64,000 nucleotides of DNA. Origin: Flavobacteriaceae bacterium (GTDB taxonomy: Bacteria; Bacteroidota; Bacteroidia; Flavobacteriales; Flavobacteriaceae). This document shows positions 11,187-62,237 of this stretch, piece after piece (the first letter of the stretch is position 1; each line of letters opens with the position of its first letter). The stretch is taken from NCBI GenBank assembly GCA_029243385.1, contig JAQWSC010000015.1:1-64000 (forward strand). The letters run 5' to 3'. The translations under genes were made by a program, and so were the position numbers. A model generated the notes under the pieces. That model was not told the origin of the DNA and searched no databases. It saw nothing but the letters and a program-made list of their open reading frames with translations.

Positions 11187-11447
11187 ATGGCTCACAAAAA
11201 AGGAGTTGGTAGTTCTAAAAACGGTAGAGAATCCGAATCGAAACGCTTAGGCGTTAAGATTTTTGGAGGACAAGCCGCTATTGCTGGAAATATCATCGTA
11301 CGTCAACGAGGCACTGCCCACAATCCTGGTGAAAATGTTTACGCCGGAAAAGATCATACTCTTCACGCTAAAGTGGATGGATTGGTAAAGTTTACCAAAA
11401 AGAAAAACAACAAATCGTACGTTTCTATCGTACCGTTTGATGCCTAA
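11187..11447 (+). CDS. rpmA: 50S ribosomal protein L27
   Basis: This is bL27, 86 residues, located near the peptidyl-transferase centre. The N-terminus [20 protein letters not shown] and the core [21 protein letters not shown] are standard. No N-terminal cleavage extension of the Firmicutes type is present. It lies in the conserved rplU-rpmA operon. A perfect hairpin terminator begins 21 bp after the stop. Confidence 0.96.
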
Positions 11448-55986: not shown

Positions 55987-58104
55987 ATGGCAATTTTAGG
56001 AAAAATTAGAGAACGTTCTATATTTTTAATTCTGGTAATCGGGATGGCATTATTTGCCTTTGTGATATCAGGTGTTTTTGACGGAGGGAGTGGATCAGGA
56101 TTCGAAACAAGAGCTCCCATAGGAGAAGTTGATGGCGAAGAGCTTTCAATTGCTGAATTTCGCAATCAAGTCGATTTTTCAGAAAGAAACTTTAATATGA
56201 CTTCCAGTCAAGCGGTTGAAAATGTGTGGAATCAAATGCTCCGCTCTACTATTTTACAACAAGAGTTTGAAGCTCTTGGCTTGGGCGTTGGAAAATCAGC
56301 AATCGAATTGGTTTTAAGTGAAAATCCAAATTTCAATTCCGACACTCGATTTCAAAATGAAATCGGTCAGTTTGACGTTCAAAAATTCATCGATTTTTTA
56401 GCCGAACTAAAAGCTACGAACCCCATTGCTTTTGAACAATGGAGCAATCAGGAGGAGTCGCTCAAAAATTCATACCGCCAAACTGTTTATCAAAATTTAT
56501 TGAAAGCCGGTTTAAATGCAACTGAAAAAGATGGAGAATATGCATTTTATTCCGAAGGCAATACTGTGAATATTCAGTACGTTCAAATTCCTTATTCCAG
56601 TATTCCCGATAGTTTGGTATCTGTAACCAAAAAAGACATAAAAAATTATATAGAAGAGCATCCTTCAGATTTTGAAGTTGAAGCTTCTCGCGACATTCAA
56701 TACGTTTTATTTGAAGAATCTCCGTCATTGGAAGATGAAAATGCTATCAAAAGTAGCCTTGAAGAATTGTTGCAAGAAAAAGAAGCTTACAACGATGTTT
56801 CCAAATTGACAGAAACTCTTCCTAGTATCAAATCGACGAAAAACATTTCGGAGTTTATTAATGAGTATTCAGACATTAAATTTGACTCGATATATATTGC
56901 TAAAGGCGCCTTGCCAACTGCGGCAGCCAACACATTGTTTGCTTTGCCTGAAGGAGAAGTTTTTGGACCGTATTTAGACAACGGCTATTACAAGTTGTCT
57001 CGAATGTTGGATCGCAAAAAAGGAGGTTCTGTTCGAGCCAGCCATATTTTGGTTTCCTATCAAGGAGCTTCTAATGCAGCTTCTGATATTACAAGAAGCA
57101 AAGCAGCAGCCAAAGCGGAGGCACAACGCTTGTTACGAAAAGCTAGAAACAATCCGAGTACTTTTTCAGACTTGGCAAAAGAATTTTCGGACGGTCCTTC
57201 CAAAACCAAAGGAGGCGACTTGGGCTTTTTTCAAGAAGGAGCTATGGTTCCGAACTTTAATGATTTTGTGTTTTCAAACCGCAACGGTAAAATAGGGATG
57301 GTTGAAACGGACTTTGGATTCCACGTGATTCAAATTACAGGAAAAGAAGATGTCGTTCTGTTAGCCACCGTAGCTCGCAAGTTAGTTCCCTCTGAAGAAA
57401 CTAGCAACTTGGTGTTTAACCAAGCTACAAAATTTGAGATAGCCGCCCAAAAAGAGGTCGATTTTGTTCAGGTAGCTGAAGAAAACAAGTATTCGGTTCG
57501 ACCGGTTAAAAACCTTAAAGTTTTGGACAATAACCTTCCAGGGCTTGAAAATCAAAGACGTTTGGTGCAATGGGCCTTTTCTGAAGAAGCTCAAGTAGGA
57601 GATATCAAGCGTTTTAATGTCAACTCAGGAGGCTATGTGGTAGCTCAATTAACGAACGCAGTTGAAGAAGGTCTTTCTCCTGTAGAAGAGGCTTCGGCTC
57701 GTGTAACTCCTATTTTAAGAAACCAGCAAAAAGCAGCATACATTTTAGATAACTATTCAGACAATGATACGCTAGAAGCATTTGCTTCGGCAAACAATGT
57801 AACGGTTAACTCAGCAGCTGCGCTCAACACTCAGGCTGGAACGCTTTCAGGAGCAGGAAGAGAGCCTCTTATTGTCGGAACTGCCTTTTCAATGTCAGAG
57901 AATGAAGTTTCTGAACTGTTGAAAGGTCAAAACGGTGTTTACAAGATCAAGATTACTCAATCTTCCAAAGCAGCACCGATCGAAAATTACACGTTTTTCA
58001 TCAATCAAGAACAAGAAAAATATCGCAGCAATATTTTGTCGAAAGTTTTCACAGCGTTGAAAGATTCAAAAGAAGTAATTGACAACCGAGCGGAGTACTA
58101 CTAA
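55987..58104 (+). CDS. PpiD-like periplasmic peptidyl-prolyl isomerase/chaperone
   Basis: A 705-residue membrane-anchored foldase. An N-terminal TM helix (RSIFLILVIGMALFAFVISGVF, about 10-32) is followed by a SurA_N-like helical domain. A central parvulin domain (about 340-450) carries RASHILVSY, FSDLAKEFSDGPSKTKGGDLGFF and FGFHVIQITG. A long helical C-terminal domain follows. It helps newly exported proteins fold near SecYEG. It is the last gene of the coaX-lptC region and has a strong terminator 28 bp after the stop codon. Confidence 0.93.
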   Translation: MAILGKIRERSIFLILVIGMALFAFVISGVFDGGSGSGFETRAPIGEVDGEELSIAEFRNQVDFSERNFNMTSSQAVENVWNQMLRSTILQQEFEALGLGVGKSAIELVLSENPNFNSDTRFQNEIGQFDVQKFIDFLAELKATNPIAFEQWSNQEESLKNSYRQTVYQNLLKAGLNATEKDGEYAFYSEGNTVNIQYVQIPYSSIPDSLVSVTKKDIKNYIEEHPSDFEVEASRDIQYVLFEESPSLEDENAIKSSLEELLQEKEAYNDVSKLTETLPSIKSTKNISEFINEYSDIKFDSIYIAKGALPTAAANTLFALPEGEVFGPYLDNGYYKLSRMLDRKKGGSVRASHILVSYQGASNAASDITRSKAAAKAEAQRLLRKARNNPSTFSDLAKEFSDGPSKTKGGDLGFFQEGAMVPNFNDFVFSNRNGKIGMVETDFGFHVIQITGKEDVVLLATVARKLVPSEETSNLVFNQATKFEIAAQKEVDFVQVAEENKYSVRPVKNLKVLDNNLPGLENQRRLVQWAFSEEAQVGDIKRFNVNSGGYVVAQLTNAVEEGLSPVEEASARVTPILRNQQKAAYILDNYSDNDTLEAFASANNVTVNSAAALNTQAGTLSGAGREPLIVGTAFSMSENEVSELLKGQNGVYKIKITQSSKAAPIENYTFFINQEQEKYRSNILSKVFTALKDSKEVIDNRAEYY

Positions 58105-58159: not shown

Positions 58160-58324
58160 GTACAAAAAAAACCTACAACTGTATAAGTATAAGATTACAT
58201 CTTAAAAAGGTTAAATATTTAATTTTTCAAACCATATCGTTCAATTTTTTCGAAAAAAGTAAGAACACATCTTCTGGAGTTATAATAGGGGTTTTTTTAT
58301 GAAAATTTGGGATATGAATAAAAG

Positions 58325-58474
58325 TTATTGAAATGATAAAAAATTCAGTAACTGCCTTTTTTGTCACAATAAAGTGCTGCGAAAATTTAGCAGTATGATT
58401 TTGAATCTTAACCTAAACCTACAAATGAAGAACTCTCTTGATTTTTTTAAAACAAAAATTAAGGGAGTTTTTTT
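58325..58474 (+). ncRNA. Candidate second antirepeat-bearing small RNA
   Basis: A plus-strand transcript ending at the 58431-58474 terminator must start between the ppiD terminator and about 58360. It contains TCACAATAA (58364-58372), the same 9-mer as the antirepeat core of the divergent tracrRNA. A 7-bp hairpin follows at once (58374-58380 with 58390-58396, 9-base loop), in the place of a tracrRNA nexus. Then come an unstructured linker and the terminator. Its bases 58364-58373 pair perfectly with the first downstream repeat. Promoter signals are weak (TATAAT at 58281, AAAATTTG at 58302), so the 5' end is uncertain. It could instead be a minus-strand repeat remnant. Confidence 0.4.
58431..58474 (+). 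terminator. Strong plus-strand terminator upstream of the Cas9-like gene
   Basis: A 16-bp stem (58431-58446 with 58454-58469, two G-U pairs) with a 7-base loop is followed by a T-tract at 58468-58474. There is no T-tract on the other strand. As ppiD already has its own terminator, this one implies a separate small plus-strand transcript. Confidence 0.85.
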
Positions 58475-58486
58475 ATGAAGGGGCTC

Positions 58487-58572
58487 AAAAAAAAAGTCCC
58501 ACCGAGGCAGGACAAAAGATTTTCATCTGCGGCATATAGCCTTATTGTGATAAGAATGATTTAACTAAAAAT
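58487..58572 (-). ncRNA. tracrRNA-like RNA of the Cas9-like locus
   Basis: Reading the minus strand from about 58572, every part of a type II tracrRNA appears in order. The antirepeat (about 58572-58542) ends ATTCTTATCACAATAAG. The nexus hairpin GGC-TATAT-GCC is at 58541-58531. A hairpin AGAT-GAAA-ATCT lies at 58528-58517. The terminator stem GTCCTGC/GTGGGAC with a CTCG loop (58513-58496) is followed by nine T residues (58495-58487). The CACAATAAGGC junction is what I expect for Bacteroidota II-C tracrRNAs. It is divergent from the Cas9-like gene and pairs with the repeats at 62112 and 62200. Size is about 86 bases. The call rests on architecture; expression is not shown. Confidence 0.8.
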
Positions 58573-58577
58573 CATGT

Positions 58578-58608
58578 CAAAGGTATTTAATTTTTTTTAA
58601 ACACCCAA
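58578..58608 (-). promoter_or_regulatory. Canonical Bacteroidota promoter of the tracrRNA-like gene
   Basis: On the minus strand, TTG (58608-58606), a 20-bp spacer and TACCTTTG (58585-58578) match the consensus exactly and place the transcription start near 58572. On the plus strand a weaker match, TTT (58586-58588), 20 bp, TTAGTTTG (58609-58616), could serve the Cas9-like gene. The two promoters would then be interleaved. Confidence 0.8.
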
Positions 58609-58628: not shown

Positions 58629-61600
58629 ATGAAAACATTAGGAATATCTTTAGGTGTTGATTCAATAGGATGGTCGGTAATAGACTCCAATCATAAAATT
58701 GAGGGAATGGGTGTGCGTGTTTTTTCTCCTGGTGCTCAGAACCTAGGAATGGGCGAGCGCGAAATTTCAAATAAGGCTTCAAAACGTGAGGCGCGTTTGG
58801 TTAGAAAGGGACACTTTAGAACCCGTCTTAGAAAGCAAAAATTACTACACTTTTTAATAGACCACAATATGTGTCCCTTATCACATAGCGACGTGGTGGT
58901 TTGGGAAAATCAAAAAATAGCTCCTATTGATAAAAGCAAAGAGTGGTTTGCAATGAACCCTTACAAGCTTCGAAGTAAAGCTGTTAGTGAAAAAATATCC
59001 TTACACGAATTTGGAAGAGTTTTGTATCACATGGCTCAGCGGAGAGGGTTCTCATCGATTCATTCGCAATACAATCCCATATTGAGTACATTGAAATTGG
59101 GCAACCCCGAAAAAAAAACGGTTGGAATTAAAGAAACCAAAAGAAAAATAAAGAATACTACATTGGGGGAATACTTGCATTCCATTCAACCCGAAGAGAA
59201 TACAACTTATCAGAACAAACCTGCTAGAATTCGAAATCGATATACAGAAAGATCTATGTATATTCATGAATTCAACGTGTTGTTTGACTCTCAAAAACAG
59301 TATCACCCAGGGTTGACCAATGCGATAAAAAACAAATTGGGCGTTGGGTTGGAAGAAGAAAATACAGCCAAAGGACTTTTGTTTTTTCAGCGTCCTTTGA
59401 AGTCCAAAAAATATTTGGTTGGAAATTGCCCTTTTGAACGCAACAAGACAAAAGCTCCTTCCAGTTGTCCAGAATTTGAAATGATGAAAATTTACAAATG
59501 GGTTAATTCAATTCGGTACAATAATTTACCACTGTCTGAAGAACAAAAAGAACAAGCGATTCAAGTGGCACTTAAGTTTTCGCGATTTTCGTTTTTGAAA
59601 GTGAGAAAAGCACTCAACAAAACAAGTTCCTCGGATTCATTTAATTATCATGATAACGATATTCAAATCATATCCCATACTCTTGTAACACTTTGTAAGC
59701 CAAAGTTTTTTGGAAAGGATTGGTTTGAATTTACCGAAAAAGAGCAAGAAGATATTTGGCATGTGCTGTATTTTTTTAACGATAAAAAGAAATTGATCCA
59801 ATATGCAGTATCTCATTGGGGATTTTCGCTGAGCAGTGCAAAGGAACTTTCAAAAATTTCTTTGAAAACAGATTATGCAGACTTGAGCCGAAAAGCCATT
59901 CGAAATATTATGTTTTTTCTCAAACGATCAATAAGTTATGAATTGGCGGTCATTTTAGGAGGAATTAAATCATCGCTCGGAAAAAACTGGACGCGCTTGG
60001 GTGAGGGTGATATTGATGCCCTTGTTTATTCAGTAACATCTCTATATGAAGAAAATGAATTGTATGGTTTTATTCCAGCTCTTCAAGCTCATTTGAAAGA
60101 CGAATTCCAATTTTCAGAAAAACAGATACGAGGGCTTTACGGAATTGCCTCACAAATTATAAATTACGAATCTTCAAAGTTTTTACCAACCAATGCTAAA
60201 GAAGATAAGGAAATCATTGCTCTTAAAAAACCGTTGCTAATAACAACAATTTTTCAATTGAGAAAAGTAGTCAATCAAATTATTAAAAAATACGGCTCCG
60301 TGGATCAAATAAAAGTAACCCTTTTACCCGAATTAAAAGCCAGCCGCCCTCAACGAAGAATCATTTACTCTGAACGAAAAAGACGCAAAGAAAATTCACT
60401 GAATATCCAACAAAAAGTAATTGATCTTGGTAAAAACCCTACTTTTTTAAACATAACCAAACTTGATTTGTGGGAAGAATCCAAAGGGTTTTGCCCTTAT
60501 ACAGGAACTCCCATTGCAATAGAGGATCTTTTTACAAACAAAGTCTCGGTAGTTTACATTCGCCCTTGGGATCGTTTTATTAATGATTCTAATTTGAACC
60601 GAACCCTTTGCAAAACGTATTTTAAAAAACATATTGAAGGGCAAACTCCTTACGAATTTTTTTCTTCCGACATAAAATACAATTGGGACGATATTAAAAA
60701 AAGAACCGCTAAGATTTTTTCTGACTCTAAAACACATCCCAATAGCTATGAGAAATTCAAACACTTTGTTCTTGTTGGAAAACAAGATGCAAACTATTTG
60801 ACAGAAATCAACGATCAGCACCATTTGAGTTTGGAGGTACAATGCTATTTGAATAAAATTTGCTCCAATGTAATAATGAGTTCAGGCTTTGTAAACAATC
60901 GACTTAGAAAAAAATGGAATCTTGATTTACCAGATGACAAGCAACGAAAAACGCTTTTAGATGACCATAGACTCCATGCTATGCACGCATTAACAACCGC
61001 CTGTTGTGAAATTAAATTTTTAAATGCTTTGGCTCATCACAATCGTTTTGAAATTACAAATAACCCTTCGTTATTTCCAATGCCATGGGCTGGTTTTGAT
61101 AAAGATGCTAAGGAGGCCTTGGATAAAATTATTGTGAGCCACCAATTCAAAGATACCATACTCACAAGTACGCACTATAAAACTCGAAAGAAAGGAGTTT
61201 TGTATAGAAACAAAGGGGTAGCGGCTCGAGGGAGCTTACACAGAGAAACCTATTACGGGAAACGAACAACCCAAAGTGGCGAAGCCTACCATCTTAGAAA
61301 ACCACTGGGAACCATTACCACTCTTAAACAAATCAACCGAATAGTAGACCCTGTGATTAAAAAATTAATTTTTAATCGCATTCAATCTTTGGGTGGTTTT
61401 GATAAAGGAAAAGTTCCTAAAAAAGCCTTTTTCAGCAAAACCAAGACCGGGAAAACAATCCCCAAAATATTTTTACCCAACCGAAATGGCGACCCAGTTC
61501 CTGTGTTGAAAGTTCGTGTTAGAAATCAAGTAGGTAATGCGGTTCAGATAAAGTCACAAGGAAATAAATATGTAAATCCTAGAAACAATCATCACGTTCT

Positions 61601-62060
61601 TATTTACGAAGACTTAATGGGAAATTTACAACAAGAGATCGTTACATTTTGGGAAGTTGTTGAACGAAAGCGAAACGGGAAACCTGTGATTCAGATGCCT
61701 GACGATGGAAAAAAAATTATAACAACTCTTCAAATCAATGATTGCTTTATCTTAGGAATGGATGACAAGGCAATCCACTGGAATCGTTTGGATTACAAAA
61801 CAATTAAAGATCACGTTTATCGTGTTCAGCGATTGTCTTCGTGTTTCTATGAATTTAGAAGAGTATTTGATGCAAATATTACCAAATCAATCTATCCTAA
61901 CTATGTGAGAATTCTAAATTTTGGGAATCACAAAACGGGATGGATGACGTACAATCCTATAAAAATAAAAGTTAATGCCATTGGAGAAATTTCAAAACAT
62001 GAAATCTCCTCAAACAGTTCTTTACATATTGACTCATCCAATGTTGTTTTAAACGTATAA
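58629..62060 (+). CDS. Orphan nuclease-dead Cas9 homologue (type II-C-like)
   Basis: A 1143-residue Cas9 homologue, counted from the ATG at 58629 (a TTG at 58614 would add five residues). RuvC-I reads LGISLGVDSIGWSVI: Ser7 replaces the catalytic Asp. The Arg-rich bridge helix (about 49-77) and the REC segment NPYKLRSKAVSEKISLHEFG (from 110) are well kept. RuvC-II reads IKVTLLPELK (Thr564 for Glu). The HNH segment keeps CPYTGTPI (from 622) but reads VSVVYIRP (Val642-Tyr643 for Asp/Glu-His), with Phe665 at the later Asn. RuvC-III reads DHRLHAMHA (His786 for Asp; His783 kept). All catalytic metal ligands but one His are lost, yet the frame is intact, so DNA binding without cleavage is likely. 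Relatives of this type are, from memory, about 1400 residues. No cas1 or cas2 is nearby. Probable role: RNA-guided repression or silencing. Confidence 0.95.
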   Translation: MKTLGISLGVDSIGWSVIDSNHKIEGMGVRVFSPGAQNLGMGEREISNKASKREARLVRKGHFRTRLRKQKLLHFLIDHNMCPLSHSDVVVWENQKIAPIDKSKEWFAMNPYKLRSKAVSEKISLHEFGRVLYHMAQRRGFSSIHSQYNPILSTLKLGNPEKKTVGIKETKRKIKNTTLGEYLHSIQPEENTTYQNKPARIRNRYTERSMYIHEFNVLFDSQKQYHPGLTNAIKNKLGVGLEEENTAKGLLFFQRPLKSKKYLVGNCPFERNKTKAPSSCPEFEMMKIYKWVNSIRYNNLPLSEEQKEQAIQVALKFSRFSFLKVRKALNKTSSSDSFNYHDNDIQIISHTLVTLCKPKFFGKDWFEFTEKEQEDIWHVLYFFNDKKKLIQYAVSHWGFSLSSAKELSKISLKTDYADLSRKAIRNIMFFLKRSISYELAVILGGIKSSLGKNWTRLGEGDIDALVYSVTSLYEENELYGFIPALQAHLKDEFQFSEKQIRGLYGIASQIINYESSKFLPTNAKEDKEIIALKKPLLITTIFQLRKVVNQIIKKYGSVDQIKVTLLPELKASRPQRRIIYSERKRRKENSLNIQQKVIDLGKNPTFLNITKLDLWEESKGFCPYTGTPIAIEDLFTNKVSVVYIRPWDRFINDSNLNRTLCKTYFKKHIEGQTPYEFFSSDIKYNWDDIKKRTAKIFSDSKTHPNSYEKFKHFVLVGKQDANYLTEINDQHHLSLEVQCYLNKICSNVIMSSGFVNNRLRKKWNLDLPDDKQRKTLLDDHRLHAMHALTTACCEIKFLNALAHHNRFEITNNPSLFPMPWAGFDKDAKEALDKIIVSHQFKDTILTSTHYKTRKKGVLYRNKGVAARGSLHRETYYGKRTTQSGEAYHLRKPLGTITTLKQINRIVDPVIKKLIFNRIQSLGGFDKGKVPKKAFFSKTKTGKTIPKIFLPNRNGDPVPVLKVRVRNQVGNAVQIKSQGNKYVNPRNNHHVLIYEDLMGNLQQEIVTFWEVVERKRNGKPVIQMPDDGKKIITTLQINDCFILGMDDKAIHWNRLDYKTIKDHVYRVQRLSSCFYEFRRVFDANITKSIYPNYVRILNFGNHKTGWMTYNPIKIKVNAIGEISKHEISSNSSLHIDSSNVVLNV

Positions 62061-62111
62061 TCCTGTCTTTCATCAGTTGGGCAGGAATGACCTTATTTCG
62101 AGAAGTTAAAA

Positions 62112-62150
62112 TTTATTGTGATTTGATTTTTTAAAAGGTCATCAACGAAC
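62112..62150 (+). repeat. Degenerate CRISPR-repeat-like unit R1
   Basis: This unit starts 52 bp after the Cas9-like stop codon. It begins TTTATTGTGATTTGATTTT, close to the GTTGTGGTTTGATT-type start I associate with Flavobacterium II-C repeats. Against the minus-strand tracrRNA it gives a 10-bp lower stem (TTATTGTGAT with ATCACAATAA), an asymmetric bulge and a 6-bp upper stem (TGATTT with AAATCA), the usual Cas9 repeat:antirepeat shape. The 30 bases before it (62082-62111) would be the guide. Flanking ATGACCTT (62088) and AAGGTCAT (62135) form an 8-bp inverted repeat. The 3' boundary is approximate. Confidence 0.55.
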
Positions 62151-62199
62151 AATGATCACTAAATAGTGAGCGTTTACTGAATTTAAAAAAATGAGAATA

Positions 62200-62237
62200 G
62201 TATTGTGGTTTGATTTTAATTCAAACGACGTTGGATG
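62200..62237 (+). repeat. Degenerate CRISPR-repeat-like unit R2
   Basis: TATTGTGGTTTGATTTT (from 62201) matches R1 at 16 of the first 17 bases, with an offset of 87 bp. It pairs with the tracrRNA antirepeat through 9 bp (one G-U), the same bulge and the same TGATTT/AAATCA upper stem. Inside it is GTTTGA-TTTTAAT-TCAAAC, a 6-bp hairpin. Bases 62170-62199 would be its guide. It ends two bases before the convergent DUF456 stop codon. The offset is longer than the roughly 66-77 bp of ordinary II-C arrays, so the array is decayed or remodelled. Confidence 0.55.

Follow-up and report, generated by a model that had tools for sequence, protein, structure and literature searches.

A conserved, structured plus-strand element beside a naturally nuclease-dead Cas9 in marine Flavobacteriaceae

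Positions 58323–58474 on the plus strand of the window (the whole 64,000-nucleotide stretch analysed) hold an element that is conserved, folded and oriented on the plus strand, and that lies between a ppiD gene and the tracrRNA of a naturally nuclease-dead Cas9. Judged by comparison of related loci, it is probably a regulatory RNA limited to the dead-Cas9 loci of two genera. In its most specific form, to which we give about an even chance, the element is an independent small regulatory RNA of ∼120–150 nt that belongs to the dead-Cas9 locus, has its own terminator and is not a component of a guide. Its left neighbour, ppiD (55987–58104, plus strand; a PpiD/SurA-like peptidyl-prolyl isomerase by Pfam), holds the same place in clade B of the dead-Cas9 loci, likewise in the sister genome of the same genus (G001) and in genus g189 (17 genomes).

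The element begins with hairpin 1 (58323–58354), a 10-bp stem formed by AGUUAUUGAA and UUCAGUAACU (fold −7.8 kcal/mol, z −5.5), followed by the motif CCTTTTTTG (58355–58363; P 0.01 in shuffles), the 9-mer TCACAATAA (58364–58372) and hairpin 2 (58374–58396), a 7-bp stem, GTGCTGC/GCAGTAT, with two G-U pairs. The 9-mer and the 7-bp hairpin after it had been pointed out in the initial annotation, and both are present. An unpaired linker (TTTTGAATCTTAACCTAAACC..., 58397–58430) leads into a Rho-independent terminator (58427–58474), which had been placed ∼35 nt on with its T-tract ending at 58474; that position is correct, and the stem, first given as 16 bp, has 19 pairs in the fold. The fold of the element beats shuffles (z −5.5). 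Its end (58474) and the T-run of the tracrRNA (∼58487) meet tail to tail across 12–13 bases, in agreement with the 12 bases first given.

The entire arrangement is present in G001, and a DNA search with the element returned this sister only, the other matches being short AT-rich or terminator stretches; the exact version of the element thus far covers two close species, the window genome and G001. Identity between the two is 82% at the ppiD 3′ end and 71% in the upstream intergenic sequence (the neutral flank), compared with 100% in CCTTTTTTG (10/10 in one tally), 88% in hairpin 2, 97% in the linker, 89% in the terminator and 95% in the tracrRNA. Hairpin 1 of G001 carries a compensatory G-C to U-A change within a stem of 11 perfect pairs, and it dominates the fold in both species (P 0.84 in the window with more 5′ context, 0.994 in G001). 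Hairpin 2 of G001 retains its pairing despite an altered left arm (ATACTGT/GCAGTAT), and the terminator is kept. This conservation, together with G-U pairs that can pair on the plus strand only, supports the predicted plus-strand RNA ending at 58474. We consider it unlikely that the region holds nothing functional past a terminator and is an intergenic leftover between ppiD and the tracrRNA. It is AT-rich, and the terminator supplies much of the folding energy (58364–58439 folded alone gives z −1.65), but the unpaired linker exceeds the neutral flank in identity by 97% to 71%, and the element has ordered motifs in common with g189.

The g189 genomes carry a counterpart RNA between ppiD and the tracrRNA. 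It comprises CCTTTTTTGCC, a GGTTC..GAACC hairpin with a U-tract, a GTAGC/GCTAC pairing, a near-invariant TTTGCTTTGATTGTTATGCTAC and a covarying 3′ hairpin. Besides both-sided changes, its helices contain G-U pairs when read on the plus strand; because the minus strand would have A-C at these places, they argue for plus-strand orientation. The core motif is confined to dead-Cas9 loci in seven of eight genomes, and in the eighth (G444) cas9 has been deleted between the tracrRNA and the guide. There is one copy per genome, except in G445, where it occurs at two contig ends. The motif CCTTTTTTG of the window is identical in G001 and in 8/8 g189 upstream RNAs; in the window it is followed, with the order kept, by TTTGAATCTTAACCTAA (12 of 17 shared), and by alignment the linker is the counterpart of the g189 motif TTTGATTGTTATGCTAC. 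The combination of CCTTTTTTG and then TTTGAxTxTTAxxCTA within 70 nt appeared in 0 of 4000 shuffles, the motifs having been picked after alignment.

A model of the g189 RNA gave the element as its best match in the 6.5-kb locus, on the same strand (17.5 bits, E 0.003), and the equivalent element as its best match in G001 (E 0.011). Five matches elsewhere, in 635 kb used as control, equal or exceed the score of the element, which puts it at background level, and the match at 11434 is a plain terminator. Between ppiD and the tracrRNA, the g189 layout runs CCUUUUUUG, structured region, UUUGAUUGUUAUGCUAC, and the element shares position, strand and motif order with it while its model score stays at background over the 635 kb. 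Because position, strand and motifs agree, homology of the element to the g189 upstream RNA is likely, though not proven.

The g189 loci also bear on a cis-acting reading, which we regard as somewhat unlikely. Here the element would be a leader or attenuator: plus-strand transcription from upstream would cross it, run antisense through the tracrRNA gene and reach cas9, and its terminator and hairpins would adjust the expression of dead Cas9 or tracrRNA, either by ending transcription early or through collision. The spacing between tracrRNA and cas9 in g189 is only ∼25–45 nt, with no separate cas9 promoter box seen there by eye, and hairpin A of the g189 RNA with its U-tract and the GTAGC/GCTAC pairing look like a terminator for which a second pairing partner is available; the tail-to-tail placement of element and tracrRNA also favours it. 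In the window, however, a strong terminator closes the plus-strand RNA at 58474 and the promoter-like TTAGTTTG stands directly before cas9. G001, moreover, has retained the element although cas9 codons 1–878 are missing. That loss may be strain variation and possibly recent; the contig ends of G001 overlap by exactly 141 bases, so the gap looks like an assembly-graph break.

As an independent small regulatory RNA, the element would be transcribed and would base-pair through its exposed, nearly invariant linker (58397–58430), which hairpins and a U-tailed terminator would frame as in trans-acting sRNAs, and the RNA may control how the dead-Cas9 locus or its regulon is expressed. It is like trans-acting bacterial sRNAs with Rho-independent terminators in its size, its exposed conserved linker and its terminal hairpin with U-tract; unlike them, it scores below the Rfam gathering score for every family and is tied to a dead-Cas9 locus. 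A Bacteroidota-type TAnnTTTG promoter was not found for it on the plus strand, and duplex energies of the linker against 59 gene starts in the window single out none.

The 9-mer had initially been taken as an antirepeat signal, from which a second tracrRNA, a natural fused guide, a relic repeat or a competitor RNA was proposed. When the 383-bp intergenic region is dinucleotide-shuffled, 4% (plus strand) to 7% (both strands) of the shuffles contain a 9-mer in common with the antirepeat/nexus core, and 68% share some 9-mer with the tracrRNA. The same position reads TCACTATAA in G001, and CCCATATAA, CCCACTTAG and others in the equivalent g189 RNA. The match to the antirepeat is near chance and probably coincidental. 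Its lack of conservation in G001 and g189 equally undermines a competitor RNA that would work through the 9-mer; a regulatory RNA acting otherwise is plausible.

A covariance model (R1) built from 20 tracrRNAs, from active and dead loci, upheld the annotated minus-strand tracrRNA (88.5 bits, E 4.5e-20 at 58560–58492) but rated the element as noise (9.0 bits, E 0.59). We rejected a second tracrRNA on this score, on an antirepeat match that is not conserved among relatives, and on the absence from the element of the nexus GGC..GCC and the tracr fold. In g189 loci, R1 finds one strong tracrRNA per locus and no second. Scarcely credible, and already largely refuted, is pairing of the element with the crRNA-like repeat TTATTGTGA in the role of an antirepeat decoy or of a second, degenerate tracrRNA. 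The element does have nine bases complementary to the repeat at 62113–62121, but its R1 score is that of noise, the 9-mer is near chance, and it is lost in the sister and g189 whereas the adjoining tracrRNA antirepeat is almost invariant.

We think it very unlikely that the element is a natural fused guide, in which 58325–58372 would fold as repeat, loop and antirepeat (UUAUUG..CAAUAA, UGAUAAAAAA/UUUUUUGUCA), continue into a nexus-like hairpin and load into the dead Cas9. This repeat-antirepeat pairing is the minimum-energy structure of 58323–58472, and the order of antirepeat, AA and hairpin resembles that of the tracrRNA, but with extra 5′ sequence it falls to P 0.10 against 0.84 for hairpin 1. 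In constrained folds, the repeat:antirepeat hairpin of a natural single-guide RNA, a candidate we rejected, has P 0.10 in the window and 0.000 in G001. The 9-mer is not conserved, the element is without the nexus GGC..GCC that is invariant in the 20 tracrRNAs, and R1 sees noise. A relic repeat on the minus strand was likewise rejected: against the repeat GTTGTGGTTTGATTAAAGATTAG, only TTATTGTGA matches, with TTATAGTGA in the sister, and the genuine degenerate repeats are located at 62113 and 62200.

The tracrRNA itself (58487–58575, minus strand) consists of antirepeat, nexus, hairpin 2 and terminator, and the −7 box TACCTTTG lies at 58585 on the minus strand. Over the 20 loci compared, 5 of its 14 pairs show both-sided changes, through which the helices are maintained.

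The neighbouring cas9 (58629–62060, plus strand) encodes a naturally nuclease-dead, type II-C-like Cas9 of 1143 aa (TIGR01865, 416 bits). Relative to active homologues, catalytic residues are replaced in RuvC-I (D to S), RuvC-II (E to T), HNH (H to Y) and RuvC-III (D to H), while the remaining protein is conserved; the RuvC-I, RuvC-II and HNH losses were rechecked against the solved Cas9 9ar4. Among close dead-Cas9 pairs dN/dS is 0.08–0.11, much like the 0.08–0.09 between active Cas9s, which marks the dead Cas9s as working proteins. Loss of the catalytic residues under persisting selection suggests that a CRISPR protein has left defence and been retained for a different role, which is probably gene regulation. 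No Cas1 was found in the window genome (G000), with control genomes positive, and the locus has two degenerate repeats only rather than an array; on both counts, adaptation gene and array, it falls outside type II CRISPR-Cas immune systems.

Our survey of 84,980 species genomes and 397 family genomes yielded about 20 loci; a single-protein scan of genome contigs gave no confirmed relative, but an alignment scan did find relatives. Dead-Cas9 loci of the clade are those of the window, L002, L061, L062, L063, L066, L067, L146, L155, L158, L159, L172, L179, L181, L183 and L184. In the tree, fifteen dead-Cas9 loci fall into two blocks: block A, where a small LuxR/GerE-type HTH gene lies upstream (of four tested, two pass the PF00196 cutoff), and block B with ppiD and the plus-strand RNA upstream of the dead Cas9. 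The branch that parts all fifteen from the active rows has an SH-aLRT of 100. By these comparisons, the dead Cas9s of marine Flavobacteriaceae form a clade under purifying selection, with its monophyly dependent on rooting since the tree is midpoint-rooted. The loci occupy one chromosomal site, beside DUF456, a lipoprotein gene and ruvC, and this common site supports one origin.

Several loci show variations of their own. The HTH gene stands directly before the tracrRNA and dead cas9 at L146, L155, L158, L159, L183, L002 and L063, and in clade A it is possibly in one operon with cas9. At L066 (G447), the RuvC-I Asp is present (GLDIGTESIGW), with the HNH His and other RuvC residues lost. L153 is a separate Cas9 inactivation whose antirepeat is full-length and of the active type; it comes from a probably mis-binned MAG that carries the label Rhizobium sp. 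The dead cas9 has also been wholly or partly lost, repeatedly and independently, at L019/L004 (G001), L078 (G444), L071 (G443), L072 (G450), L089 (G441) and L086 (G436), where guide or tracrRNA remnants are intact.

Past cas9, degenerate repeats replace the array, one in clade A and two in clade B, each flanked by a fixed guide. In the window, guide-like RNA 1 (62087–62142, plus strand) is a hairpin with guide AAGTTAAAA and degenerate repeat TTATTGTGATTTGA (62113–62126), kept in G001 and g189. Guide-like RNA 2 (62171–62229, plus strand) has guide AAAATGAGAATA and degenerate repeat GTATTGTGGTTTGA (62200–62213), is enclosed by CGTTT.GAATT/AATTCAAACG and is ∼98% conserved in G001; relatives of its guide are AATAAGTATA in g189 and AATAAATATA in clade A. 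The guide TTCATTAAATAAATATA is identical in eight clade-A loci and has diverged to CATTTTAATAAATATA at L063 (G224), and TTTTGTTTAGTTAAAA is found throughout g189. Each guide-like RNA of the dead-Cas9 loci can be enclosed in a stem. The guide seed of g189 and of the window is able to pair with the 3′ portion of its repeat, and structure may thus account for some of the guide conservation. The dead Cas9 would most likely bind DNA without cutting, guided by these fixed downstream RNAs, and act as a regulator.

Searching locally for sites that the guides might target turned up no convincing candidate. The 13-nt clade-A seed returned itself and scattered sites; two of these, both in near relatives, lie 3′ of a glutamine-synthetase gene and are a lead only. 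Guide near-matches were seen before the amt start and after glnK at L087, L100 and L102, and 3′ of the glutamine-synthetase gene at L088, L106, L191 and L203; such near-matches by nitrogen-assimilation genes are no more numerous than those of the reversed-pattern control, and the one at the amt site overlaps conserved glnK codons. Distinctly unlikely, in our estimate, is a reading in which the element is an RNA dedicated to and bound by the dead Cas9 (a fused guide or a modulator of guides), as part of a natural transcription regulator that derives from Cas9, has hard-wired guides and occurs across marine Flavobacteriaceae.

The dead locus resembles Flavobacteriaceae type II-C CRISPR-Cas9 in full-length Cas9 homology (TIGR01865, ∼41–46% identity to active Cas9s), in tracrRNA sequence and fold, and in the repeat 5′ half GTTGTGRTTTGA. 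It differs in the lost catalytic residues, the lack of Cas1 in the genome and of an array, the loss of the long upper repeat-antirepeat stem, and the fixed guide-like RNAs. The nearest mechanism is the non-cutting, short-guide regulation that Cas9 is reported to carry out with tracr-L (type II-A) and scaRNA (Francisella Cas9); those Cas9s are active nucleases, unlike the dead Cas9, and the element is not a form of tracrRNA. TldRs, which are TnpB-like nuclease-dead repressors (PMC13418256), also count among the nearest mechanisms. Like them, the dead Cas9 has an inactivated nuclease domain with RNA- and DNA-binding parts that appear kept, and it may be a domesticated RNA-guided regulator; unlike them, it derives from Cas9 rather than TnpB, is chromosomal rather than on a phage or transposon, and gave no targets in our searches. 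No report of naturally dead Cas9 homologues was found in the literature covered, which takes in only a minority of subscription papers and preprints, so novelty is not proven.

Engineers have turned Cas9 into dCas9 as a tool for regulating genes. If our interpretation is true, this is a clade in which evolution made its own dCas9, keeping the tracrRNA with compensatory changes, discarding the array and fixing one or two guide-like RNAs, and domestication can make a stable host protein of a Cas9. In that case the element would be an extra RNA of the dead-Cas9 locus and a handle on how the locus is regulated, and the clade would supply ready-made, naturally selected non-cutting Cas9 proteins.
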